64,000 bases of DNA from Aurantiochytrium sp. KH105 (taxonomy: Eukaryota; Sar; Bigyra; Thraustochytrida; Thraustochytriidae): the NCBI GenBank assembly GCA_003116975.1, contig BGKB01000028.1, forward strand, positions 592,171 to 656,170, given 5' to 3'. The number at the start of each line of letters is the position of its first letter. Position 1 is the stretch's first letter. The notes beneath the pieces are model-generated. The model had not been told where the DNA came from, did not search any database, and was given only the letters and a program-made list of their open reading frames with translations. The translations under genes were made by a program, and so were the position numbers. This document shows, one piece after another, positions 1-33,683 of this stretch.

Positions 1-866
1 TCTCTGTCTCCTCGAGGGAACCTACGTTCATACTCGCGACGGTCAACGCCGCCACGTCTCTCAAAGCTGGAATAACTGCGCGGGGGAGCATCATAAGCAG
101 GCGCGGGTCTGCTGTTACCCCGATATCCCCCACCTCCACCTCCACCTCCGCCAAACCCAAAGCTACGGCCCGCGTAACTATCGAGCGGACGTGCCAAGCT
201 CTTATTGAGCTCCTCAAGTTTGGCGCGGACGAGCTTCCAACCGTTGTATTGCTTACCCGTAAAGTGGCTCAAGAGCCGCTCGTCGTTGTCGCCGCGCGAA
301 ATCAGGTTGCCACTTACAGGACACACGATATGCAGACGTTGCGAGTCTGGCACGGAGAACAAGACGTTGCGTTGCGCGCGGAGAGTCTCGACACGCTTGT
401 ACAAGTTGAATGCCATCACGACCTCCCCTTGTTTCGCCAAGGCCTGGAGACGCTCGAGCGTCTCATCCATTTCGTCCTCGAGCTCCAAAATCCTGAGCGC
501 GGAATTTGCCATTGCCTCGGGGTCTTCTGGGTTGCTGCGCGCGAGGTTATCCTTGATTCGATAATCGACTTGACGCACCAGTTTCTCCAAAAATCGTCTC
601 GTCTCTTCTTCGTACCCGTACCTGCGCTTCTCTTGTTCGCTGAGCTCTTCCCAGGCCGCCTTGCACTCATCGTCCGGGATCTTGGGGTTTGGCCCAAGGT
701 CTGACTTGGTTCTGCGGAACAACTCGTACGGCGAGCACCCGACGAGATACATTTTGTCCACGTCACGATCGGAAAAGTGCCGTTTTCTCGTTTGTGTGCG
801 CTGCTCCGGGGCGAGGTTGCGCTCCGCGCCCATGAGCTCGTCCAGCAGCGCTCGTTGAGCCTCCAT
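1..866 (-). CDS. LUC7: LUC7-family U1 snRNP-associated protein (C-terminus off the left edge)
   Basis: LUC7 proteins stabilise U1 snRNP on 5' splice sites in the nucleus. The frame is read on the minus strand from ATG 866-864 and is open to the window edge, giving 288 codons without a stop. The start is chosen because MEAQRALLDELMGAERN matches the family N-terminus and a stop lies in frame about 70 bases upstream. Family signatures are DRDVDKMYLVGCSPYELF (35-50), TKSDLGP (53-59), a long helical stretch (about 65-175) and DNDERLLSHFTGK (193-205). A Gly run (239-246) starts an Arg/Ser/Tyr-rich tail of RS type. Odd point: most zinc ligands of both family zinc fingers are replaced. Finger 1 keeps only C44; finger 2 keeps C182 and H201 but has S185 and Y207 at the other two positions. 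The family call is firm; the function of this divergent form is inferred. Confidence 0.88.
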   Translation of the reverse strand, partial: MEAQRALLDELMGAERNLAPEQRTQTRKRHFSDRDVDKMYLVGCSPYELFRRTKSDLGPNPKIPDDECKAAWEELSEQEKRRYGYEEETRRFLEKLVRQVDYRIKDNLARSNPEDPEAMANSALRILELEDEMDETLERLQALAKQGEVVMAFNLYKRVETLRAQRNVLFSVPDSQRLHIVCPVSGNLISRGDNDERLLSHFTGKQYNGWKLVRAKLEELNKSLARPLDSYAGRSFGFGGGGGGGGGYRGNSRPAPAYDAPPRSYSSFERRGGVDRREYERRFPRGDR

Positions 867-1012
867 GATGCGGTGCACGACGGACGCACTATCCCCCAAA
901 GCCTCTTGCGCTCGCCGACTCTCCTTCCAGAGTGAAACTCACGCTGGTCCTGGACTGGCGCGGACGCCTGAAGCGAGCTTCCTTTCCTCCCCCTGCCGCC
1001 GCCGCCGCGGCC

Positions 1013-1044
<32 letters not shown>

Positions 1045-1397
1045 CGCCGCTGGTTTTTGCTTTTGCTTTTCGAGTTGCCTTTTTACGCGCGCACCCATTC
1101 GTATTTCACTCGTCTTTTTACTGCCAAGCTTGGATTTGATGATGGCGACAACGACAGTCACAAGCCATCGCAAGAGAGAGTTCGGAAACGAGCAGGATAG
1201 CGAAGAAAACCAAGAGGAATAGAAGCGCTCGTGGCTCAGACGCCTTGAGAATCCAAGAAAAGGCCCCTCACGGCGGCTCTGCCATCATTTCGTTCTCACA
1301 GTAAAAATAACTTTTCGATTTGACCTTCTACTACGAGCACTTACTCCTCGCTTTAAACAAAGCAATCAATCATACATTGGGCTTACTGCTGCTGCTA
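867..1397. other. Intergenic 5' leader region with GCC/GCN trinucleotide run
   Basis: This gap lies between the LUC7 start and the 3' end of the JmjC-GT32 gene. It contains a compound GCC/GCN run at about 980-1045. The run translates as polyalanine in several frames and so creates short open frames on both strands. I see no convincing gene; this is probably the promoter and 5' UTR of the LUC7 gene. Confidence 0.6.
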
Positions 1398-3374
1398 TTA
1401 CTTCTGCCAGGAACGAGCCCAGTGATGCACGGCAAGAGCACCTTGCGCAGCATAGTCCTTTGAAGATAGCACCTGCTCAGGAGAGGCGTCGTTGGCCAAG
1501 GGATAGAGTGTTCTCGGGGGAAGAATGAGAACGCTCGAATTCTCGCGTACTTGCGGCAAAACCACACGAGTAAACATCCCCGGGCCCGTGCGGGAAATCG
1601 TTTGAGAAGATGAACTCACCGTTTTTGCACTCTCCAGTACCTCTTGATCCTGTGGCGTGAGGAAACTATCCAAAAGACCGCCCACGGCGCTCAGGGGTGA
1701 GCTCGCCTTGGCAGATCCCACTCGTTCAACGAGAGCTTCGAGGACCGGATGGCCTGGCGTTGACGCGATAAAAGCATTATTGATCTCCAAAGCGCCCACG
1801 TTGGACAGCCCACAAATAAATTGCACATCCAAGGCCGCCATCTCATTCATAAATTCGGTGATGGAACGGACACACTCAAAGTCGACATCGACGTAGACGC
1901 CTCCATAACGCCGCAGAATCTCATAGCGCGCAATGTCTGACCTTTCGCCCACATTTGCTGCTGTTTCGAACGCGCGCCGATTTTGCAGGTCGAGTTGTGA
2001 AATGTCGGCATCGCGCCAAAGTCGGAGCTCCCAGCCCTCATCAGCAAGAAATCGCTGCCAGGACTTGACCCAGTCACCGTGGTTGGGGATGTTCTTGGAG
2101 CCTAACCAAATGTGGTGAACGATGCGAGGAATGCACTTTGGCCCGTGTTGGACGCGCGGACGGCTCCAAAGCTCGTCATATCGTTGCTGGATCGCGTGCA
2201 TCCAGGCTTCGTCGTCCGCACCCCATAAATTGGGTCGAGTCTGTGGAGCTTTGCATCCCTCGAGACCCTCTGCAAAGCTCGCCGGCAACGGGACGCGGCG
2301 CGCCAGTCCGCTCTCGTCTGGAAAGCGCTCCTGCATCGCCTTGAACCACGCCGTCTTGAAAGGACTTAATTTCTGCAACCGCATGGCTTGCGTGACCTTT
2401 CCAAGACTTGCGCTGCTCGCAAAATTCTGCGTCACAGCCACCGTCATGTCCAAGTTTATCACAATATGCCACCATCCACGAGGAACAAAGACTGTATCTC
2501 CAGGTGCCTGTGTAAATTCTAGCAGTCCTAGCGCTGCGCGATCAAGCGTGGGAAGCACCTCGGCAAACCACCGCTCCACGTTTACATCCCGACGGAAACG
2601 ACGCACTTCTTCCTCCGGGACGTCTGGCGGAATGAGCACCCAACGCTTGTGGCCTTCAAGAAGTGTGTTCCATGCCGAGGTCCCCACAGGATCATAGTGG
2701 ATTCGCGTGCCCGAGCGCGCAGGCCCGATGAGTAGCCATCGAAAGCGTGGCCGGCCTTCGAGGCCGTCAGCCTTGTTTTCAGGGCCCTGATTTGTGCTCG
2801 CAAGCTCGAAAAGATCACGTCCAGCAAAAACACGCGGAACCTCGTACCCGGCCAGAATTGCATCGCGCGCTGCCGCAGACTTTGCATCTGCGGCGTCTGC
2901 ACGTACACTGAGATCTTCAAAGAGATAAAGCGGACACTCGTCGATCTCTGCCCGTCCCTCCGCGTACGATAGGTACTCGCGAAGCGTGAATTTCTGCCCG
3001 GTATACAGCGCAAACGATGCGTCCCCGTACGTGTCGCCGAGTGAGGCCGCCGTCCAGCTTCGTGCTTCCCACGCGTCGGCGCAGCCAAGGAGCGCCAGCG
3101 GTCGTCCCCGCGCGAGAAAGTCGCGCTCGAACTCCTCTGGTGCAAGTTCGCTTGCGTCTCGCAGCTCGAGGTCGCCAAAGTGAACACGATCCGCCGCTTT
3201 CTCCTTTGTTCCTTCTTCGAGAAACGTCTCGAGCTGCTTGCGGAGTGCCTCGGCCGAGGCCCGCGTCTCGCCGTCCTCGGCAGCGCCCTGGTCGCCGTCG
3301 CCCTCGCCGTCGCTCTCGTCGTCGTCTGCGAGCGCCGCCGCCATGGCGAACAGGTCCAGCGCGGACTCGGCCAT
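1398..3374 (-). CDS. JmjC-domain hydroxylase fused to a GT32 (Och1-like) glycosyltransferase
   Basis: A single 658-residue frame encodes two enzymes. Residues about 75-330 form a JmjC Fe(II)/2-oxoglutarate oxygenase of the JMJD6/cupin type, with iron ligands in HYD (H226, D228) and WWHIVINLD (H303), and the GDTVFVPRGWWH strand before the last ligand. Residues about 413-655 form a GT32 glycosyltransferase: RIVHHIWLGSKNIP (417-430), DIARYEILRRYGGVYVDVDFE (from 480) with DXD D496-V-D498, and an AVHHWARSW end. The N-terminus is acidic, with no signal peptide or membrane segment, so a nucleocytoplasmic location is expected. I chose the internal ATG at 3374; the frame is open to 3527, but that extension reads through GATCGATC promoter repeats. 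The gene diverges from the TTL-like gene across 236 bp. Inference: it hydroxylates a side chain and then glycosylates the hydroxyl. JmjC members can instead be demethylases. Confidence 0.85.
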   Translation of the reverse strand: MAESALDLFAMAAALADDDESDGEGDGDQGAAEDGETRASAEALRKQLETFLEEGTKEKAADRVHFGDLELRDASELAPEEFERDFLARGRPLALLGCADAWEARSWTAASLGDTYGDASFALYTGQKFTLREYLSYAEGRAEIDECPLYLFEDLSVRADAADAKSAAARDAILAGYEVPRVFAGRDLFELASTNQGPENKADGLEGRPRFRWLLIGPARSGTRIHYDPVGTSAWNTLLEGHKRWVLIPPDVPEEEVRRFRRDVNVERWFAEVLPTLDRAALGLLEFTQAPGDTVFVPRGWWHIVINLDMTVAVTQNFASSASLGKVTQAMRLQKLSPFKTAWFKAMQERFPDESGLARRVPLPASFAEGLEGCKAPQTRPNLWGADDEAWMHAIQQRYDELWSRPRVQHGPKCIPRIVHHIWLGSKNIPNHGDWVKSWQRFLADEGWELRLWRDADISQLDLQNRRAFETAANVGERSDIARYEILRRYGGVYVDVDFECVRSITEFMNEMAALDVQFICGLSNVGALEINNAFIASTPGHPVLEALVERVGSAKASSPLSAVGGLLDSFLTPQDQEVLESAKTVSSSSQTISRTGPGMFTRVVLPQVRENSSVLILPPRTLYPLANDASPEQVLSSKDYAAQGALAVHHWARSWQK

Positions 3375-3610
3375 CTTGCTTATCAAAGCCGTCTGCCTCT
3401 CGGGTTCTCTTCCCCGTCTCCCTGATCGCTTGATCGATCGGAGCAAGCGATCGATCGATCGTGGGCTGTCTTGCGCTCGCCGCCACTGCTGCAATGTGTG
3501 AATGGAATGGAATGGCACACAGAGCAAGGGAAAGCTGCGCGACGTCGGTCAGGGTCCAGCTTGGAACGGACGCGGGTTCGTCTCGCAGATCAAGATCGAT
3601 CCATGGGTCC
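3375..3610. promoter_or_regulatory. Bidirectional promoter region with GATCGATC palindromes
   Basis: This 236-bp spacer separates the divergent ATGs of the JmjC-GT32 gene and the PAN-TTL gene. It carries clustered TGATCGATCG and CGATCGATCGATCG palindromes at about 3425-3460. Both neighbouring reading frames run into it, but neither extension looks like protein. A shared promoter is inferred from the geometry only. Confidence 0.45.
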
Positions 3611-6001
3611 ATGGCGCGCGCGGAGGGCTCCTGCGGCGCGGGCTCTGGCGCCGGCGGCAGCGGCTGCGGCGGCAGCGTGGGCCTGAGCGCGGCCACACTG
3701 CTGCGCCGCGTCCCGTCCCCGCGCGCCGCCTTCCACGGCGGCGGCCCCGGCCCCGCGGACCCGGCGGACTCCAACCCGCTGCGCGCGACCCACGCCTACG
3801 CGTACGCGCGCTCCCAGTCCGCGCGCGACGTGCGCGCAGCGTCGGATAGCAACCTCGGCGCTCGCGGCGTAGCTTCGGGCCTCAGTGCGAGCTTTCGATG
3901 GAGTCCAGCATCCACCCCGACCGGCGTGGCAGACGCCGGAGGCAACGGCAGGTATCAAATTCCGCGCAGACCGAAACGCACACGCTCAAATGACCTTGGC
4001 ACCAACGCAGCTGCCCAGGCGCTCGCGCAAGCTGCCGCCCAAGCCGCTGCGTGGCATGATGAGAGTCGCGAAAATCTGATGGAGACAGTTGTCTTTCATG
4101 TGATCGCTCTGCGTGCCATCGTGCTCGGGTTCTCTGCCGCGATTCTCCTTCTCGGAATCTCTGCTCTCGTCGACGCCTCAGGAGCTCGCGTGTGGCTTGG
4201 CATGGCCGACCAGGGTAGCTGCGAGCTTCCAGAGGGGGGCTTTGCTGCTCCAACTTTCGATGCTAGCATCAGTGCATGGGACACGCGTCTTTCGTGCCGG
4301 GATGCCCAGGCGTGGGACCACATTCACCTGGTGGGTCGCGAGTTGCATGTGACGTCTGCCGACTCACTTGGCGCATGCTGTAGCGCCTGCAGCGCGCGAC
4401 GGAGATGCGTCGGCCTTAGTTTTAACTTCGTCGCGGATCGTTGTGTGCTCTTCAAGGACCACATTTCTGACGCAGTCCAGGCAAGCTGGACACGCTCTCT
4501 CGTCATCCACACGCAGGCTGGTGTCAACGCGAGCAGCTTGAGTAAACATTGCCGTCCTGCGCGGGAGACGGAACGCTGGGATCCGGCATGGACGTACGAG
4601 CGAGCGCTTGCGCCTCCAAGTTTTAGTGTGGAAAGCACGTATCGGGATCCGTCTTCACGAAATCGACGGACGCGGACAGACTACCGCGATCACGTCACTG
4701 GCGCCTTGCGAGACGTAGGTCTTGTGCCAATTTCATCGTACGAATCTAGCGTGCGAGCCGACGTGGTGTGGGCTCTTCATTGGGAGACAGAGCAGGCGTT
4801 TGCAGAGGCAGCCCTTGGCCCTTGGCAGCTGCTCAATATGGTCCCGGGCGCTCTCGACCGTACATTGGGAGAAAAGGACGCCCTGCACCGCACGACACAC
4901 GCTGCACGAGCGCGACTGGGTGCAACTCGCATTGACGCCTTCATGCCACATTCTCTAGTATTACCCGACGAAGCGGCTGCACTCAGCGCGGAACCAGATC
5001 GAGTTTGGATCTGGAAACCGCTTCGCTCATGGTCGGGAGATGGCATTGCGGTGCTGACGGGGTCGCAGGCGCAAGCTCGCGCCACGCGCGAGCGACTTGG
5101 CACGCAAAAGGTGATTTTGCAAAGCTACATTCTTCGCCCGCTCACGCTCATGGGCCACAAATTTGATGCGCGATGGTGGGCCATCGTCACCAGCGTGGCT
5201 CCTTTAAGAGTTTATTCTATTCCGGACGCATACTTGCGTCCGGCTGCTCTGCCGTATCGTACTGATCGCGCAGGCCTTGTGGACAAATGCATTCATGTGA
5301 CCAACGGCAAGGTCTTCAAGCATTGCAAGGGATCGCGCAAGCTGGGACTTGCATCGCATCACGTTCGAGACCGATTTCTCCTCGACACGTTGCGTGACGA
5401 AGCAGGCGGTCCTTTGACGGAGGATATGCGGGACAATGTTCGTCGCACGCTCGTATCCCGTACGCAGACGTCGCTCGTGAAAACGATCCTGCTGGCCCTA
5501 CCCGGTTTATTGGAAGCAAGGAATTGGACGCAGGCGCGTACATTTCAATTGCTTTCATTTGATGTAATCTACGACGCCGCGACCGCTTCTCCGTGGATCG
5601 AAGAAGTGAACACCAATGGCTTTCTTGGCAGCGGCGTCCTCGAGGTCTCGCGCGCAATGTCGTCTGATATTCTTCGTGACATGTTCGTCCTCGTTGGTGC
5701 GGCAGGCTACGATCGCTCCACGTATCAAGCGAGTTTGGAGCGCGCTATTCTCCGACGCGGTTCAGACGCGAGGGCGTCTGTTCCAGCTGTGCAAGCAGCC
5801 GTGGATGAGCTTTTTGCGCCGCAACGTTCGTGGAAACTGATTTACCCGCGCATTCGCGACCCCTTGCATGCTGAGATCGATGCGTTCGCGCAAGACGCAG
5901 GTGACGACGCAGAGCACGGCAAGCTTCTCGCGGATCTTCTGCCTGGAATCCCGGGTCAGCCTGCGCTTTCAACAAAACTCGACGCGGAGCTTCCCCTGTA
6001 A
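3611..6001 (+). CDS. Type II membrane protein with PAN/apple-like and TTL (tubulin-tyrosine-ligase-like) ATP-grasp domains
   Basis: The protein has 796 residues from ATG 3611; the frame is open upstream to 3461 inside the shared promoter. Order: a low-complexity Gly/Ala/Arg N-terminus; a basic patch RRPKRTR (119-125); one strong hydrophobic segment (160-187); a Cys-rich PAN/apple-like module (about 204-314, eight Cys including CCSACSARRRC); and a TTL-family ATP-grasp ligase (about 375-715). Ligase signatures are NMVPGALDRTLGEKD (409-423), WIWKPLRSWSGDGIAVL (466-482), QSYILRPLTLMGHKFDARWW (504-523), HVTN (562-565), and FQLLSFDVIYD with PWIEEVNTNG (645-670), which keeps the metal-binding E and N. 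TTL enzymes ligate an amino acid to a carboxylate using ATP, classically Tyr or Glu on tubulin. The positive-inside rule puts the ligase in the secretory lumen or outside the cell, where tubulin is absent. Substrate unknown. Confidence 0.82.
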   Translation: MARAEGSCGAGSGAGGSGCGGSVGLSAATLLRRVPSPRAAFHGGGPGPADPADSNPLRATHAYAYARSQSARDVRAASDSNLGARGVASGLSASFRWSPASTPTGVADAGGNGRYQIPRRPKRTRSNDLGTNAAAQALAQAAAQAAAWHDESRENLMETVVFHVIALRAIVLGFSAAILLLGISALVDASGARVWLGMADQGSCELPEGGFAAPTFDASISAWDTRLSCRDAQAWDHIHLVGRELHVTSADSLGACCSACSARRRCVGLSFNFVADRCVLFKDHISDAVQASWTRSLVIHTQAGVNASSLSKHCRPARETERWDPAWTYERALAPPSFSVESTYRDPSSRNRRTRTDYRDHVTGALRDVGLVPISSYESSVRADVVWALHWETEQAFAEAALGPWQLLNMVPGALDRTLGEKDALHRTTHAARARLGATRIDAFMPHSLVLPDEAAALSAEPDRVWIWKPLRSWSGDGIAVLTGSQAQARATRERLGTQKVILQSYILRPLTLMGHKFDARWWAIVTSVAPLRVYSIPDAYLRPAALPYRTDRAGLVDKCIHVTNGKVFKHCKGSRKLGLASHHVRDRFLLDTLRDEAGGPLTEDMRDNVRRTLVSRTQTSLVKTILLALPGLLEARNWTQARTFQLLSFDVIYDAATASPWIEEVNTNGFLGSGVLEVSRAMSSDILRDMFVLVGAAGYDRSTYQASLERAILRRGSDARASVPAVQAAVDELFAPQRSWKLIYPRIRDPLHAEIDAFAQDAGDDAEHGKLLADLLPGIPGQPALSTKLDAELPL

Positions 6002-6244
6002 GTAAGACTTTATAAAAGGAGAGCACGATCTTTTCTTTTTTTTATCATCTTGATCTAAATCGTGACAAACGTGACATGATTTCTAGACTACCGTGGGTAT
6101 GTATGTATATACCGGGCAGGTTGCATCTAACCAGTGAAGGTGACGTGATGTAATGCTCGCTTACTCGCCCGGGATTTCCTAGGGGTGTGGTGTGGTGCGA
6201 GGTGATGTGGTGTGGTGTTGCCAGACCTCGTAAGAAAAGGTCAT

Positions 6245-6796
6245 TTAAAGAATGTTGAGAATGCCGAGACTCGAGGACACCGCAGTGTACACGACTCCAA
6301 TGAGGCAGGTCCAGATGTGAGGAGCCATGCGCGACTTGGTGTAGCGCGTCTCCGCCGAGACAGCGTAGCCATCGGCCCAGGCCAGGCGCGAGCACATGTA
6401 GACAGCGCCGCACAGCGAGGTCACAATCGGGTGGCGAAGGCCGCCGATGAGCGAAAGGGCGAGAAAGCTAGGGTAGGTCTCGAGGGCGTGCTGATGGCCG
6501 CGCTGCACCTGGTTAAAAGCCTTCGCGTCCTCCGAGTCGCCTTCGGCGTACATCTTCGGGTACTCGACACCATACTTCTTGCGGGCCTTGCCCACACGCG
6601 AAGCCAGCGAAAGGAGGGTGAAGGTGGATCCAACCACGTTGAAGAGCGCCACAAGGCCGTACAGCTTGGGAACCGCCAGGATGCTCGAGCCCTGCACAGG
6701 CTCCGGCAGGAGCTCCTGAAAGTTCGTCAGGGCGTACGTCTCGCCGATCATGAGCGCTGCGATGGGCAGGCCCCGCTTCACCAGGATCTCGATCAT
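6245..6796 (-). CDS. MGST3: MAPEG-family membrane enzyme, microsomal glutathione S-transferase 3-like
   Basis: A 183-residue integral membrane protein of the MAPEG superfamily, whose members conjugate or reduce substrates with glutathione or act in eicosanoid metabolism in the ER membrane. The MGST3 signature is clear: ARKKYGVEYPKMYAEG (71-86), then FNQVQRGHQHALETYPSFLAL (94-114), matching the conserved R-x-H-x3-E pattern, then GGLRHPIVTSLCGAVYMCSRLAWADGY. Hydrophobic segments fall at about 43-67, 108-123, 125-142 and 160-182. The N-terminal 38 residues are longer than in animal MGST3 and partly hydrophobic. The gene converges with the PAN-TTL gene, with 243 bp between stops. Peroxidase versus transferase activity cannot be decided from sequence. 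Confidence 0.88.
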   Translation of the reverse strand: MIEILVKRGLPIAALMIGETYALTNFQELLPEPVQGSSILAVPKLYGLVALFNVVGSTFTLLSLASRVGKARKKYGVEYPKMYAEGDSEDAKAFNQVQRGHQHALETYPSFLALSLIGGLRHPIVTSLCGAVYMCSRLAWADGYAVSAETRYTKSRMAPHIWTCLIGVVYTAVSSSLGILNIL

Positions 6797-7607
6797 CTTT
6801 CCACGCTAGCGCTCGTACCTGAGGCTTTGCTATGTGTCCACGTGCACCGTTTCGTTGCTGCTGCCGCTGCTTCTTTTGTGTCTGGGTTTGGTTTGTTTTG
6901 GTTTTGGATTTGCTTCGTTCGTGCGTTTGGATTTGCAGCCTCCTGCGAAATCCTATCCTCGCGAAGCTCTCGCAGAACACTCCCCCCCTGCCCCTTTACG
7001 GATCTTTATTCCACCGTACTTGATACACCAGCCGGGCCCACTAAATGGGTGTACTCTGCAAGTATAAATTTCACCGAACATCCGGCCGAACAGAGAAGAA
7101 GAATCCGCGGCTGAAAAAGGGTTGCGCAAGTCTAACCGTTGAAAACTGCGTCCCACTGGCGCTTGGCCCTGCGCCGGCAAGTCGCTTAAAGGAGGGCGCC
7201 GTGCTCGCGTCCCCAAAAGTAGTAGCTAGTTCGCTATAGACGGCCAGCTGACACGCTAAACCTTGCACGCTGTACTTTGCGAGCTAGCCCACGACCGAGC
7301 GAGACCCCGAAGAAACGCATTCCTAAACTGGCTTCAAGATCCTGGTTGGCACAGGCCCAAGACCCAGGCGTCCAGCCGGCGTGGTCGAAAATAGGGCGAG
7401 AGAGGGCTTGAAGACCAAGCAGGCGCGGACGTTGACGGGATTGAACGGTCGATCAGGAATAGAACCGGTGGGATCTTGCCATTGGCTTTTTCTTCGTCAC
7501 GGGTACGGTGCTTTGGCGGCGATAGGTCCACATAATCGACGCTGATAGGCTCACAACGGCAACAAAGCGTCAAAGGAAAAGTGGGACGCAGAAGCTGAGC
7601 CGCGCCA
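6797..7607. other. Intergenic region, divergent promoters
   Basis: This holds the upstream regions of the MGST3-like gene (-) and the RhoGEF gene (+). T/G-rich stretches lie at 6880-6930. I see no supported gene, RNA or mobile element in it. Confidence 0.55.
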
Positions 7608-10600
7608 ATGCAAGACGCAACGCACGCACGGATGATGGAGTACGAGCGCGACGAAATTGCGACGACGGAAGAGGATGAGGAGCACGAGGAGGTCCTATCG
7701 CCGGACTCTACCTCGCGAGGTAGCTTTGGCGAGCTCGAGGAGGTCCCAGGCGAGCTGGACGAAGCACGTCGTGTTGCTCTTGAACAGGTGGAGATCAAAT
7801 CTGAGGCAAACTTTGACCACGACGCCGAAAATAGCCACGGCCACGGCCTTGATCTCGCCCAGGACCTTCGCGACGGTGACTTGCACAGACTTTCCAGTAG
7901 ACCTGGTCATGGCGCGCTCGACTACAGTAATGATGTTGTTGGAATGGACGACGACGAATACGACGACGACGATGAAGAAGGAGAAGAAGTATACCAACAA
8001 CAGCAGCATCAGCATGAGGATGAAAATGAAGATGAAGATGAGGAAGAGACACTTGGCAGCGATGAACATGAAGTCGACACGGATGAGGGCGGAGATCAAC
8101 GACGTTCTCCGCGTCTAACGATTGATCTGCAACAAAGCGAACCTTCAGATTGCAACGCAGCGAACGCAATTACGGCGGAAAGCGCAAGCGCAAGCGGAAT
8201 TGCTCCAGAGCAATCTCGACGAAGATCTTGGTCCGCTGCCTCGTATCTGCGCAGCAAAACGCCGTCCACTCCTCTTCGTGGACGCAAAAAGGACAACGCA
8301 ACGGAACGCGCACGAGCCAGCAGTATCGAGTCGAGTGCAAGCAACATGGCATCTCCTTCCTCTGCTGCAAGTCATAGACTCCCTCGAACCCCCCTATCCG
8401 CGTTTCGCAAGCGCGCTAACAACAAGACCCCAAGCAACGACGCTGCCGCAGCAGCGCAGCCTTCAGTGCGCAGACGAACATTCTCCGCCAGCAGTTTCGG
8501 CAGCCTTCTTTCAAGCCCAATGTCCGCGCTTCGTGGGCGGAAGACACCCCAGTCAGCAACACCGCGTAGTGATGCAACGGGAGGCTTTCGAGAATCGCCG
8601 CAACGTAGACGCCGCTTCTGGTCGAACGCAAGCACGGAAAGTGACCACGAAGCCAGCCAGGCACATGACGAAGAAAAACGATCAAGCAAGGAATCGAAGA
8701 TGGGGCGTTTCCGCGCTGCCTTCAAGTCGAGCAAGGCGCGAATCTCCAAATTTGGGCGTCGCGCAAGCCAGGAGTCTCTCGCTTCCCGCGACGATGCAAG
8801 TGATCGAGAAGGCAAAACTGCGTCTCCTCGGGAAGAGGTGGTGGCTGCATCACCTCGTTCTCTTATTTCAGAGAGTGACAACGAGATCGAGTACGGCCCC
8901 AAAGATGACCCTCATGGCGACTCGAGGAGCGAGACAAGCTCTCAGCGGACCGTGGAGGTCCCCTACGAGGAGGAGATCCGTGTTTGTCTTCTCTCCTTTT
9001 ACATCGAGCACAATCCGGAGAAGATTGGAGATGTGCCCATGCTTTTAGAAAAGTACGCAGGAGACGAAGAACAGATGCTTCTCAAACTCGAAGAAAAGTA
9101 TGATGCAGATGTCCTTGCCTACGAGGATGCGCTTGAGGTCGTACAAGACTACGAAGAGAGAGAGGGAGTAAGACTGCTCGAAGTTGACGATGCCACCTCT
9201 GAAAAGGACCATCAGAGCCGCCCTCCATCCCCGCTGCGTGAGCCCGAGTCTGCACCTTCACATGCGCAAAGTCCCAGATCCCCACGTCTCCCTCGAAGAC
9301 CTGGCTCTCCTCCCCTTCCCCAAAGACCAGGGTCGCCGCCCTTGCCTCACAGACCCGGATCGTCCGAGGCAGCAGCTAAAGAAAATCCGAGCAAACGAGA
9401 GTTTGCAGAGCCCTTTGGTACCATTGAGAGAATTTGGCTCACTACGAAGCCCGAGCTTCTGCTTGGTATCTCGTATCATGAACATGCGCGTGCCATCCTT
9501 TTGCAGCTTAACGAGAGTTTCATGAGGCAAGAGTCTGTGGAGTCTGTGCTGCAGACACTTCGTCGTGCGCACAAATATTATTTGCACGGTGCGGACGAAG
9601 CGCTTGAAGAAGGTATCCGCGAGCTGAAGGATGTCTTGCAAAGTCACGACCGGCGAGAGGATCGAGCTGATGCAGCACCGGAAGACGACAACGGGGAAGA
9701 TGAAGTTGCTGCGGAGTCACCTCAGCCACATCACGATGAGGACCAACGTCTTGAGGCTGCCTCTAAAGCCTCGAGCACGCTCGATGCCGAGCGCGAGAGC
9801 GCGTCTGATGAATCTTCCGTCGAGGACACCGCAACAGGGGTCGGTGCTCTCATCCGTAAGAATGAAGCAGCGATTTCTGCTGTTCAAGAACAGGAGGCCG
9901 TGAATGCTCCAGATTGGATGTGGGAGGGTCGCGAATTCGATGACGACGGTGACGACAACGGCAATGAGGATGAAAGCAAGAGGCCTCAAGAAACTGAAGA
10001 GGACCAAGATGATGATCGCAGCGAGAGCATGTCGGAAGGTAGTTGGGACCGTGACACTGAAGCTTCCGCGCCAGAGAATTCGAGTCATCAGCAGGAGGCT
10101 TCTCCCGAAATCGCTTTGTCCGTCTCGGAAAAGGAAGACGAAATGCTCATGTCGCCACTCTCTCCAAGTACAGGCGAGGAGACATCTGATTTCGGCGATG
10201 GCGGCGGCGACGACGACGACGACAACGAGAATGTGAGCATAAGCGATGGCGAAAATTCTCCTGTGGCGCCACCTGTGCCTTCACGAACACAATTTGACGC
10301 ACTTGACACGGCTGGACTTTCGTACCGGGACCGAGTGGATGCGGAAAGCGTACGTCAATGGAAAAAGAGGCTCCGGCTCATGGACAATGCTCTCTTTGAG
10401 ATCATCGACACGGAGAGACAGTACTTTAATCACCTCGACACCATCAACGACCTAGTGATTGGTCCTATGCTCGAGCAGGTCCAGAAGCGCAAGATCCGTT
10501 TCACACAAAAGGGCGCTGATGCGCTTTTGGGGCTGCTTCGATTGTGGCCAAAGCTTACAAAGTTCCATGGGAATCTCAATGAGAGACTTTGGCGGCGTTG

Positions 10601-12074
10601 CGTTGACGAGAACGCGAGACAACATGGAGTCCCTCTACGCGTGTGCTGGGACGAGTCTTCACAGCCCCTGTTCGGTTGCCTTGATGAGCTTGCGTCTCTT
10701 CGTGGTGCCTGCTTCATGTATGAGGACTACTGTTCACAATATGCAGCAGCTGTGGCGAATTATGCCAAGGAACTCCAGGTAAACAAACAGCTCGGGACGT
10801 TTTTGCGCGCAAATTGCGAAGGCGCCTTGCGCGGCGGGAGCTTGGAGAACTTTCTCATCATGCCCGTGCAGCGCATCTGCAAGTATCCCCTTCTCTTACA
10901 AGCGGTGGCATCGCACCAAGCTCAATTTACACCGCTGCAGCGCGAAGCCTGTGAGAAGATCAATCGTGCAATTCGCGATACTGCCTCCTGGGTGGAACAG
11001 ATCGATGTCAGCACGTCGAAGACTTCCATGTACGAAGCCATGGCGAACATCACCCGGCGTCTTCGCTTTGGCGAGGATGAGGACTCTGTGTCGCTCACGG
11101 AACCTCACCGGGCTCTTCTCAAGGCCGAGACGCTTGCGATTCTTCGGGACGATTCCGGTGACAGGGCAAATGCTGCGCAGGGAGAGATGCGTTTCGTCAT
11201 TCTTTACAACGATGTCCTCCTGCTCACTGTCGCGCGCAAATCATGGCTGAACCCGGCCATCAAGGTGTACGATGTCATGCAGGTCCTTCCCTTGCGCGAA
11301 GCTGTATGCGTGTCGATTGCAGGTATTGGAGGCACTGGCATTGAGCCGCTTCGTCTCGAAAGTGATGCATGGCGACTGACACAGACGCTTGATTTGCTGT
11401 TTGAGACCTCGGCGCAAGCTGACGCGTGGAAGGCGGGAGTCGAAAGCGCCCTGGCGTTTGCTAATAACGAAATGAATGCGCACCGAGACGGCAGTCTCTT
11501 GGCGCAGCTGGCGCAGCGCATCAACAGCAAGCGGAACCAGTCGACCTTCATGCGTCAGCTCTTGGAAAAGCCTTCGCGCGTTTCACGCGCCTTTGGGCAA
11601 CTGCACCAAGCTGGCGCGATCACTATCCAAAGGACGTTTCGCGGTCTGTGCGGTCGTCGTCGCGCAAAGGCGCGCAAAGACGAGCTTTCACGTGAGGTTT
11701 GGGCGGCCATGACGATCCAGCGTGCATTCAAGCGTATGAGAAAGAAGCTGTACTGGTCCAAACAGCGCAGACTTGAAGGCGAGCGTGAAGCGCGTGTCAG
11801 CTACGAGGAACTCAGGAAAGCCGCTGAAGATGACAGCAGCAGTGGCGACGAAGATGAAGATGAAGACGATGCCAAGAATGAGAACGCTTTGGAGGAGGAG
11901 GACCCATATTCTGACTGGGATGACACAGCTTCCGAGGCTGAGGCAGCGCCACCTCGGGCTTCGACTGTCGACGGCGGCGACAGCCTCGACGACTTTGGCG
12001 CTTTCGACGAGGCTGTTGGACTTCGTTTCGACGATGATGATGATGATGACGATGACGATGTCCAGCGTGTTTAA
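7608..12074 (+). CDS. Rho guanine nucleotide exchange factor (DH-PH) with C-terminal IQ motifs
   Basis: A 1488-residue protein. A DH domain (about 917-1130) begins KRLRLMDNALFEIIDTERQY and includes GGSLENFLIMPVQRICKYPL, the conserved Rho-GEF helix. A PH domain follows (about 1170-1285; MRFVILYNDVLLLTVARK). Two IQ calmodulin-binding motifs come next (about 1334-1375: AITIQRTFRGLCGRRRAK and AMTIQRAFKRMRKK). The tail is acidic and ends in an Asp run. The N-terminal 900 residues are mostly acidic or Ser/Pro-rich disorder, with two ordered islands: about 450-500 (FYIEHNPEKIGDVPMLLEKY type) and about 600-680. The predicted role is activating Rho/Rac GTPases at the cytoskeleton or membrane under Ca/calmodulin control. 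The start is the first Met, 34 bases after an upstream stop-rich leader. The target GTPase is unknown. Confidence 0.9.
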   Translation: MQDATHARMMEYERDEIATTEEDEEHEEVLSPDSTSRGSFGELEEVPGELDEARRVALEQVEIKSEANFDHDAENSHGHGLDLAQDLRDGDLHRLSSRPGHGALDYSNDVVGMDDDEYDDDDEEGEEVYQQQQHQHEDENEDEDEEETLGSDEHEVDTDEGGDQRRSPRLTIDLQQSEPSDCNAANAITAESASASGIAPEQSRRRSWSAASYLRSKTPSTPLRGRKKDNATERARASSIESSASNMASPSSAASHRLPRTPLSAFRKRANNKTPSNDAAAAAQPSVRRRTFSASSFGSLLSSPMSALRGRKTPQSATPRSDATGGFRESPQRRRRFWSNASTESDHEASQAHDEEKRSSKESKMGRFRAAFKSSKARISKFGRRASQESLASRDDASDREGKTASPREEVVAASPRSLISESDNEIEYGPKDDPHGDSRSETSSQRTVEVPYEEEIRVCLLSFYIEHNPEKIGDVPMLLEKYAGDEEQMLLKLEEKYDADVLAYEDALEVVQDYEEREGVRLLEVDDATSEKDHQSRPPSPLREPESAPSHAQSPRSPRLPRRPGSPPLPQRPGSPPLPHRPGSSEAAAKENPSKREFAEPFGTIERIWLTTKPELLLGISYHEHARAILLQLNESFMRQESVESVLQTLRRAHKYYLHGADEALEEGIRELKDVLQSHDRREDRADAAPEDDNGEDEVAAESPQPHHDEDQRLEAASKASSTLDAERESASDESSVEDTATGVGALIRKNEAAISAVQEQEAVNAPDWMWEGREFDDDGDDNGNEDESKRPQETEEDQDDDRSESMSEGSWDRDTEASAPENSSHQQEASPEIALSVSEKEDEMLMSPLSPSTGEETSDFGDGGGDDDDDNENVSISDGENSPVAPPVPSRTQFDALDTAGLSYRDRVDAESVRQWKKRLRLMDNALFEIIDTERQYFNHLDTINDLVIGPMLEQVQKRKIRFTQKGADALLGLLRLWPKLTKFHGNLNERLWRRCVDENARQHGVPLRVCWDESSQPLFGCLDELASLRGACFMYEDYCSQYAAAVANYAKELQVNKQLGTFLRANCEGALRGGSLENFLIMPVQRICKYPLLLQAVASHQAQFTPLQREACEKINRAIRDTASWVEQIDVSTSKTSMYEAMANITRRLRFGEDEDSVSLTEPHRALLKAETLAILRDDSGDRANAAQGEMRFVILYNDVLLLTVARKSWLNPAIKVYDVMQVLPLREAVCVSIAGIGGTGIEPLRLESDAWRLTQTLDLLFETSAQADAWKAGVESALAFANNEMNAHRDGSLLAQLAQRINSKRNQSTFMRQLLEKPSRVSRAFGQLHQAGAITIQRTFRGLCGRRRAKARKDELSREVWAAMTIQRAFKRMRKKLYWSKQRRLEGEREARVSYEELRKAAEDDSSSGDEDEDEDDAKNENALEEEDPYSDWDDTASEAEAAPPRASTVDGGDSLDDFGAFDEAVGLRFDDDDDDDDDDVQRV

Positions 12075-31295: not shown

Positions 31296-33683
31296 TTAGC
31301 CGTGCACAACGACCTTGACGTGGCCAGCGTGGTCCACAACCTGGAACGGCGTTCCGCTGTCGTAGATACGGAACCAGAGCGCAAAAAGCACGACGGAAAA
31401 CAGCGAGGCAGCGACAGAAATGATGACGAGCGCACCATAGAGCTGCGCATTTCCCAAAATGAGCGCCATGATCGACATGGCAATCGTGCCAAAGGTTCGC
31501 AAGGCAGACTGACATTCCAATACGGTGGGCACCTGTTCTTCCTCGACCCATTCGCGCAAAAGCTTTGCATGCACGAGGGCAAACGCACGGAGCGGGGGCC
31601 CAGAAAAGATGAGAACAACCATGAGGAAGAGCAAAGAAGCCTTTGACGAAGACCCAAAGAGCGTAAATCCAAGAATTGCAGGAAACGTAGTGGACCACAG
31701 CACCCAGAGCGTCAGCGAAGCCGTGCGCGCGAGCGAGCCTGTCCAACGATGAATGTACTTGACAAAGGATACCAGCCCGCATGAGAAGCATCGAAGACCG
31801 ATGAGCACGCCAATGATCCACACCGGTAGGCGACGCCATCGCAAATAGGTGAGCGAGAGAATGCCAAGGTCCAGGATGGAAACGCCAAGGGCTGCGTACG
31901 CCAGACTTGCCAAGAACACAGGGCTGCGCGCGTACACCCTCCAGCGCTTGAGCGACCTCTTGGCCCGCTCAAGGGTCGGTCTGCGCGGGGACACGCCAAT
32001 CGGGTGGTAGATGCTACGGCTTCCATACGGGTCAAAAAAGGTCACACTCGTATCGAGGGGCGGTCTCTCCGTGCGCAGTGCCGCCTCAGTGTGGTATGCG
32101 AGACGGAAACAAGACATCTCGAGCATCAGAACGAGAATTTGCCAGGCCATTAAAGTCTCCATTGCAATAAAAAGGGCCACGCGTGGCTCCCCAAGGTCCA
32201 CGACGAGACCAAAGAGCGTCGGCGCGCACACAAAGGCAATCGTGTGCGCGCGGCTTAGTGACACCTTGAGCGCCAACACCGAGGCGTCAATGCGATCGCG
32301 GGCCATCACGCTTTCCGACATGCGCCCGTAAACAACCTCGGGCTCATGATGCAGGCCGTCTCCCGTGACGGCTCGCCCGTGAACGCCAGCGATTTCTACA
32401 GCTTCAAGCTTTTCTTCAACAATAGGGCTCTCCATGCTACCGCTGCCGAAAAGACCCCCGCCAATGCCCTCGCTGCTATCTTCGCTTTCTGCAAAGCTCC
32501 CAAGCGGACTCATGCGACTTGACGCCTCTGACCCGTGACGCATTGCCAGATCGAGTCTGGCCGTGATCTTGTTTGCTGACGGCCGGCTTTGTTCGTTCGA
32601 AGAAGATGTGAGAAACGGCATCGCCTGAGTCATGCTAAAGGGTGCAGACGCGACAAGCTTGGACCAATCCTTTCGAATAAGCGCGTTGCGCGCAGCTCTT
32701 GCAACCACGCTCAACGAAAAGGCGAAAATGAGCACACAGAGAAGCATGAGCTGCTGAAGCTGCCACACTTCGGGCTGCGACGCAGAAAGCGCGGCGTCGA
32801 CTTCGGGGTCGGCATTGCCCGAAGACCCCTTTTCAAAAACCCACGGCGCGACAGCACCGCTGTCAATTCCGAGAACAGAGCTTGGTCCTGCTCCAGCCCC
32901 TGCTGCTTCCGTAGCCCCTGAGGACGGCGGGCTTGCGTCCGCCCCGGCGCTGCTGGCCCCATCTATATGGGTTTTACTGACCTTGGCATTTTGGAGCAGG
33001 GCGACTGGGCCGTGCACGATGGCCGAGGCTTCGGGAAAGGCGACCTGGGCAAGCCGAAAGGCGAGCGCGATGGCCGTGAGCGCAGAGATCCTTTCCAAAA
33101 GGACCAAGGCGAGAGCGCATGTGAGGCGATCCACCTGCATGAGCTTGGGCACCACACGGTGCACGAGCAGCGAGGTCATGAGCGTGCTGCATAGCACGAT
33201 GGCAGCCGCAGGCTCCAGCGAGTCGGAAAAGACTGCAATAAGCACCACGGCAAGCGTCAGGTCCGTTGTGGCTGCACACGAGGACGAAACAAACTGGGCG
33301 ATCCGCAATGCGCGTCGAGCGCACGTATAAGGATCGACGGCTGGCCTGAACTGCTTGTAAATGGAGGGCCGCACGTAGCCGCTCATGGTCTGCGGTGCGC
33401 GCGAGCTCTTTGCGCCGTTTGGCCGGGCACGCAAGCGCTCTCGCAGGACCATAATGCAGGGGCCCAACCCCAGGGTCCCAATGAATAAGCACGCCCCGAT
33501 CCAGCTGCCTCGGACCAGGCAAATCTCGCTATCCACGACATCGCTGAGGTCCTGCACCGTCAGGAGCAGGCACGGCGTGACGAGCCCCAGCAAGGTAGCG
33601 CACAAAAGGGTGGCCAGGACCAGCGCGAGCGTCTCGAGTTGCCGCGCCGCGCGGGACTGCCCAAAGCCCGCACATCCGGGCAT
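31296..33683 (-). CDS. Orphan polytopic membrane protein (about 12-14 segments)
   Basis: I do not recognise a family. The 795-residue frame shows hydrophobic segments at about 16-41, 62-84, 140-180 (two), 190-215, 305-330, 455-500 (two), 570-625 (two or three), 640-690 (two) and 725-775 (two). A large hydrophilic Ser/Gly/Ala loop lies at about 228-290, and a second acidic/Ser loop at about 345-440 has GSFAESEDSSEGIGGG and GSMESPIVEEKLE. Sequence between segments 2 and 3 (SGYVRPSIYKQFRPAVDPYTC) and before segment 9 (VTFFDPYGSRSIYHPIG) is Tyr/Pro-rich and may be conserved. No ATP-binding, ion-selectivity or transporter signature is visible. The start is the first Met; a basic N-terminus precedes segment 1. 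Codon use and continuous hydrophobic periodicity support real coding. A transporter or signalling role is possible but not shown. Confidence 0.8.
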   Translation of the reverse strand: MPGCAGFGQSRAARQLETLALVLATLLCATLLGLVTPCLLLTVQDLSDVVDSEICLVRGSWIGACLFIGTLGLGPCIMVLRERLRARPNGAKSSRAPQTMSGYVRPSIYKQFRPAVDPYTCARRALRIAQFVSSSCAATTDLTLAVVLIAVFSDSLEPAAAIVLCSTLMTSLLVHRVVPKLMQVDRLTCALALVLLERISALTAIALAFRLAQVAFPEASAIVHGPVALLQNAKVSKTHIDGASSAGADASPPSSGATEAAGAGAGPSSVLGIDSGAVAPWVFEKGSSGNADPEVDAALSASQPEVWQLQQLMLLCVLIFAFSLSVVARAARNALIRKDWSKLVASAPFSMTQAMPFLTSSSNEQSRPSANKITARLDLAMRHGSEASSRMSPLGSFAESEDSSEGIGGGLFGSGSMESPIVEEKLEAVEIAGVHGRAVTGDGLHHEPEVVYGRMSESVMARDRIDASVLALKVSLSRAHTIAFVCAPTLFGLVVDLGEPRVALFIAMETLMAWQILVLMLEMSCFRLAYHTEAALRTERPPLDTSVTFFDPYGSRSIYHPIGVSPRRPTLERAKRSLKRWRVYARSPVFLASLAYAALGVSILDLGILSLTYLRWRRLPVWIIGVLIGLRCFSCGLVSFVKYIHRWTGSLARTASLTLWVLWSTTFPAILGFTLFGSSSKASLLFLMVVLIFSGPPLRAFALVHAKLLREWVEEEQVPTVLECQSALRTFGTIAMSIMALILGNAQLYGALVIISVAASLFSVVLFALWFRIYDSGTPFQVVDHAGHVKVVVHG

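Follow-up and report, generated by a model that had tools for sequence, protein, structure and literature searches.

A membrane-anchored TTL-type ligase with a PAN-like module in Aurantiochytrium sp. KH105 and its predicted placement in the secretory pathway

Ligases of the TTL/TTLL family are cytosolic enzymes of the tubulin code, and TTLL6, a tubulin polyglutamylase, is soluble and microtubule-bound. A non-tubulin acceptor has a precedent in TTLL11, which, according to an excerpt of PMC11574253, glutamylates the protein DVL3 at its C-terminus. Among the open-licence PMC texts listed, no paper described a TTL that is lumenal or a type II membrane protein; the excerpts of PMC7217449 and PMC7335047 name only PF03133 in a domain table and a diatom TTL among cytoskeleton genes, respectively. 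Here we analyzed a 64,000-nucleotide stretch of Aurantiochytrium sp. KH105 (contig BGKB01000028.1, positions 592,171 to 656,170 of the forward strand; hereafter the window), in which one open frame encodes a protein, the window protein, with a single membrane segment, a cysteine-rich PAN-like module and a TTL domain. Our proposal, to which we assign a probability of roughly 0.58, is that this is a type II membrane protein of the secretory pathway acting as a lumenal ATP-dependent amino-acid ligase, the PAN module of which would bind a non-tubulin acceptor. We infer its orientation, activity, donor amino acid and acceptor from the features described below.

The ligase domain and its acceptor position

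The TTL domain of the window protein scored 86.6 bits against a Pfam cut-off of 20.1 (E 2.3e-24), and among solved structures the best sequence match was TTLL6 (E 1.1e-12, query residues 387-703). An AlphaFold model of residues 190-796 had a mean predicted local distance difference test score (pLDDT) of 60.2 and a predicted template modeling score (pTM) of 0.57, with the TTL blocks at pLDDT 83-95 (model residues 231-380) and 73-93 (model residues 421-480). Its leading fold matches were TTLL6, TTLL11, TTLL7 and TTL, with TTLL6 at the top in both Foldseek and VIA. Moreover, all ten ATP-grasp signature residues, positioned by alignment, are kept (K469, Q504, K517, D519, R521, N565, D651, D655, E665 and N667), and E665-V-N667 presumably binds metal, as is known for the family. 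A preliminary description of this DNA had considered the ligase residues intact, with which the alignment agrees. With these ten residues kept, the window protein looks enzymatically able.

The position of Q180 in TTLL6 is occupied by Q in elongases and by R or K in initiators. Located by hand count on the TTLL6 alignment (the engineered chain 6vzq differs there), its equivalent in the window protein is S475, which is neither Q nor R/K. Across the genome alignment, 10 of the 12 cytosolic-type rows carry Q or R at this position (Q 6, R 4, C 2), and the nine membrane rows carry S, S, E, E, G, G, G, G and A (Q or R in 0/9), the row L033 being poorly aligned there. The membrane rows are related and therefore do not represent nine independent events. 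The pattern appears to fit an acceptor other than tubulin tails.

Membrane anchor, cysteine module and predicted orientation

The window protein contains one hydrophobic segment, at residues 169-187, with a Kyte-Doolittle (KD) value over 19 residues of 2.55 that none of 2000 shuffles of the pre-TTL part reached (highest shuffle 2.52). The preliminary description had placed a single membrane segment at residues 160-187; the number stands, and the span has to be shortened to the core given above because R168 falls inside the longer one. Its further premise, a basic N-terminal flank, was not borne out: the net charges before/after the segment are -1/-1 over 15 residues, -2/-3 over 25 and -2/-4 over 40, and the basic stretch RRPKRTR, at residues 119-125, is found only ~44 residues upstream. 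Since the near flank is not basic, the topology argument built on charge fails. The lumenal amino-acid ligase that it was meant to support is still our best reading, for which the cysteine distribution, the sequons, the long N-terminal tail and the sister genes count instead.

Among the ten cysteines that follow the segment, eight lie in the PAN-like module and two in the TTL domain, and both predicted N-glycosylation sequons (residues 306 and 638) are C-terminal to the segment. The opposite orientation would need the export of a 168-residue tail, which would be unusual; for this reason, and given the placement of the cysteines and sequons, a lumenal orientation of the C-terminal part is favored rather than proven. 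This reading is also supported by a second gene with anchor, TTL and PAN, in which the flank signal for a cytosolic N-terminus is very strong, and by six membrane TTLs with six shared cysteines, four of them with basic N-flanks (see below). An additional membrane segment on an upstream exon, about which the preliminary description had been cautious, finds little support in the surrounding sequence. An earlier in-frame ATG at 3494 would extend the protein by 39 residues and adds no membrane segment, and a divergent JmjC/glycosyltransferase frame begins at 3374 on the opposite strand, so that the short 5' stretch between the two genes leaves little room for such an exon.

The region behind the anchor had been described as an eight-cysteine PAN/apple-like module. 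Its eight cysteines (204, 229, 256, 257, 260, 266, 278 and 314) and its core spacing hold up, and the PAN match itself is marginal: when the region is scanned alone, PAN_1 reaches 22.8 bits and clears its cut-off of 21.4, and PAN_4 stays under its cut-off of 27 at 24.5 bits. Like the PAN/apple domain (PF00024, PF14295), the module has a C-x3-C-x5-C-x11-C core that aligns with other PANs of the genome, the four core cysteines being invariant in 6/6 aligned rows, namely the window protein, the second anchor-TTL-PAN gene and four others that look like two allele pairs. It differs from that domain by its sub-cut-off scores in the full protein and by the extra cysteines 204, 229, 257 and 314. PAN modules typically occur in proteins that are secreted or sit at the cell surface, and anchor and PAN together argue for a compartment other than that of tubulin.

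In the proposed mechanism, the N-terminal tail would be kept in the cytosol and residues 169-187 would serve as an uncleaved signal-anchor, exposing the PAN module and the TTL ligase domain to the lumen of the endoplasmic reticulum (ER) or Golgi. The lumen of these compartments contains ATP. A glycoprotein en route to the surface would be the acceptor, held by the PAN module, and the ligase would spend ATP to activate a carboxyl group of this protein (on an acidic side chain or at the C-terminus) and to couple a free amino acid there through the acyl-phosphate route of TTL/TTLL enzymes.

Membrane TTL genes of the genome and competing explanations

Most usefully, our analysis shows that the architecture of the window gene recurs in this genome, where 9 of the 23 TTL genes examined have a hydrophobic segment ahead of the TTL. 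Six of these nine (L047, L048, L050, L052, L053 and L054) group together, keep the signature residues intact and share six invariant cysteines with the signature C-x6-9-C ... [FY]C ... F-x-C-W ... C-x-N-C-[YF], and a basic flank precedes the segment in 4/6. As in the window protein, a hydrophobic segment stands before an intact TTL and neither Q nor R occupies the Q180 position; unlike the window protein, they have six invariant cysteines in or near the TTL and no Pfam PAN match. Disulfides can be inferred in these TTLs only from the invariance and number of the cysteines. For lumenal TTLs, the six-cysteine group may offer firmer ground than the window gene itself; we make no claim of descent of the window gene from this group.

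The preliminary description had called for homologues of the same architecture. Within the genome the search yielded the nine membrane TTLs, one of which, besides the window gene, again joins anchor, TTL and PAN; viral and prokaryote collections gave none. This C1/C60 sister gene encodes a membrane segment, a TTL, a RanBP-type zinc ribbon, a PAN above both Pfam cut-offs and C-terminal repeats, and its net charge of +10 before and -2 after the segment is a strong signal for a cytosolic N-terminus. Both this protein and the window protein combine a membrane segment with TTL and PAN, and the two PANs share ACCS-x-C. It is also the sole other match to the window PAN: a genome search with that PAN at E up to 1 returned, besides itself, only the two copies of this gene (E 0.003 and 0.005). 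The sister protein differs in that its TTL precedes the PAN, its TTL site is degenerate, and a zinc ribbon and C-terminal repeats are added. These repeats, with a motif of roughly H-N/D-P-x-K...LL..Y.G.E..LL, resemble part of a RhoGEF protein encoded in the window at 7608-12071 (+). The likeness of the two PANs, with E-values that are weak, suggests a common ancestry of the membrane segment-TTL-PAN chain or a shared PAN subtype.

Several observations weigh against a lumenal PAN-bearing ligase. In the scan of the full protein both PAN profiles stay under the Pfam cut-offs (PAN_4 20.8 vs 27, PAN_1 20.1 vs 21.4), the window PAN is not among the matches listed from a genome-wide PAN_1 search that gave at least 97 stretches at E 0.001, and the PAN part of the AlphaFold model is poor, with pLDDT <50 over most of it. 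Membrane TTLs are separated from the other TTLs by only a small margin in hydrophobicity where the two sets come closest (1.52 vs 1.37), and on a second hydrophobicity scale only the window protein and L047 among five proteins tested have a favorable segment, those of L048, L050 and L052 being unfavorable (+0.2 to +1.4). The window TTL carries 0/6 of the invariant cysteines of the six-cysteine group and cannot be placed in the TTL tree, where its long branch joins L020 and no neighbor is supported (only 1/20 inner branches is starred, and the bootstrap is not settled). In addition, no second allele of window positions 1-7000 was found in an assembly that otherwise looks diploid. Viral contigs contained no orthologue of the window protein, of the six-cysteine alignment or of the TTL alignment, nor did a prokaryote/viral genome collection searched with the window ectodomain and the six-cysteine alignment, although collections of viruses and prokaryotes say little about other eukaryotes.

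Further adverse points bear on the side of the membrane. The ligase might face the cytosol, with its segment oriented N-out or forming a hairpin, its TTL near microtubules modifying tubulin or another cytosolic protein, and its PAN-like module reduced or metal-binding. The flank charges of the window protein are nearly balanced and almost neutral as to orientation, and in another TTL gene with a hydrophobic segment, L056:181-2133 (-), basic residues follow the segment, so that its flank charges predict a cytosolic TTL, here with G at the Q180 position. RanBP-type zinc ribbons and RhoGEF proteins are both usually cytosolic, and in the sister gene the zinc ribbon and RhoGEF-like repeats follow the segment and share their side with TTL and PAN, which counts against a lumenal place for that gene or at the least complicates one. 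We nevertheless consider a cytosolic ligase unlikely: its 168-residue tail would have to be exported without a signal peptide, 8/10 of the post-membrane cysteines sit in the PAN-like module, the sister gene has strongly asymmetric flanks of +10 and -2, and the Q180 equivalent is a serine.

A lumenal or surface receptor or scaffold, in which the TTL fold binds a nucleotide or peptide and does not catalyze, seems to us rather improbable. The degenerate TTL site of the sister gene speaks for it and against a ligase, as K and D are replaced by R and V, and E..N by D..S; with these signature residues lost, non-catalytic use of the architecture probably occurs. However, the window protein keeps 10/10 of them despite its long branch. 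Placement in another organelle, for example in the mitochondrial inner membrane with the domains in the intermembrane space and the tail as targeting sequence, would agree with the richness of the tail in Arg, Ala and Ser and with the disulfides that the intermembrane space also allows. Against the habitual occurrence of PAN modules outside the cell or at its surface, and the basic pre-segment tails of 4/6 six-cysteine members, as in type II signal-anchors, we give it very little credence. Extending the lumenal ligase to its relatives, we tentatively suggest, at somewhat short of even odds, that this lineage has a family of type II membrane TTLs that modifies secreted or surface proteins while they are in the Golgi lumen. 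In this view, part of the family would have disulfide-stabilized ligase domains, the amino acids would be attached as, for example, side chains of glutamate or glycine, and the PAN-bearing members would choose the acceptor.

Surroundings of the gene and comparison with known systems

Table 1 Features of the window protein and of the sister gene (window positions unless a locus is given).
Feature	Position	Strand	Basis or remark
Open frame, membrane-anchored PAN-TTL protein	3611..6001	+	796 aa + stop
N-terminal tail, residues 1-168	3611..4114	+	predicted to be on the cytosolic side
Single membrane segment, residues 169-187 (AIVLGFSAAILLLGISALV)	4115..4171	+	KD 2.55, plus second hydrophobicity scale
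Eight-cysteine module, residues 204-314	4220..4552	+	Pfam PAN match 240-287; core cysteines 256, 260, 266, 278
N-glycosylation sequon NAS, residue 306	4526..4534	+	sequence motif, predicted
TTL (PF03133) ligase domain, residues 405-669	4823..5617	+	Pfam span; fold matches TTLL6
Nucleotide-loop region, residues 469-478 (K469 ... S475-G-D-G)	5015..5044	+	alignment with TTLL6
N-glycosylation sequon NWT, residue 638	5522..5530	+	sequence motif, predicted
E665-V-N667 of the ATP-grasp site	5603..5611	+	sequence
C1/C60 sister gene	L033:1356-4769 and L034:1439-4852		1137 aa in both alleles

The window is the final 64 kb of contig C28. The divergent neighbor of the PAN-TTL gene (1401-3374, minus strand) fuses a JmjC/Cupin_8 hydroxylase domain to a Gly_transf_sug (DXD) glycosyltransferase domain, has no membrane segment by KD, and is possibly a one-protein hydroxylase-glycosyltransferase. 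A Ferroportin-like transporter (PF06963) is encoded at 31299-33683 (-). Elsewhere in the genome (G000:C17:15714-17699 and C58:15941-17926), two FabA domains lie within a single frame of 1845/1857 aa, which we take to resemble the polyunsaturated fatty acid (PUFA) synthase subunit of thraustochytrids.

If a lumenal branch of TTLs is real, secreted or surface proteins could gain amino-acid side chains after translation, a change seldom sought in studies of the secretory pathway, and a type II TTL family adding amino acids in the Golgi would amount to ribosome-independent amino-acid ligation in that pathway. The sister genes make the idea testable, as the genome holds several intact membrane TTLs, six of them with a cysteine signature that can be searched for.

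Among the described enzymes, TTLL6 (PDB 6vzt and others) is like the window protein in sequence, fold and signature residues; in contrast, it is microtubule-bound (structure 8u3z), and the window protein has a membrane anchor, a PAN-like module and S475 where TTLL6 has Q180. TTLL11 (PDB 9hq4) shares the fold as well, but acts on cytosolic proteins, unlike the window protein with its predicted lumenal ligase, and keeps Q255 at the Q180 position according to an excerpt of PMC12366701. The window protein is of an enzyme kind already known, in a predicted placement that is apparently undescribed among the open-licence texts listed.
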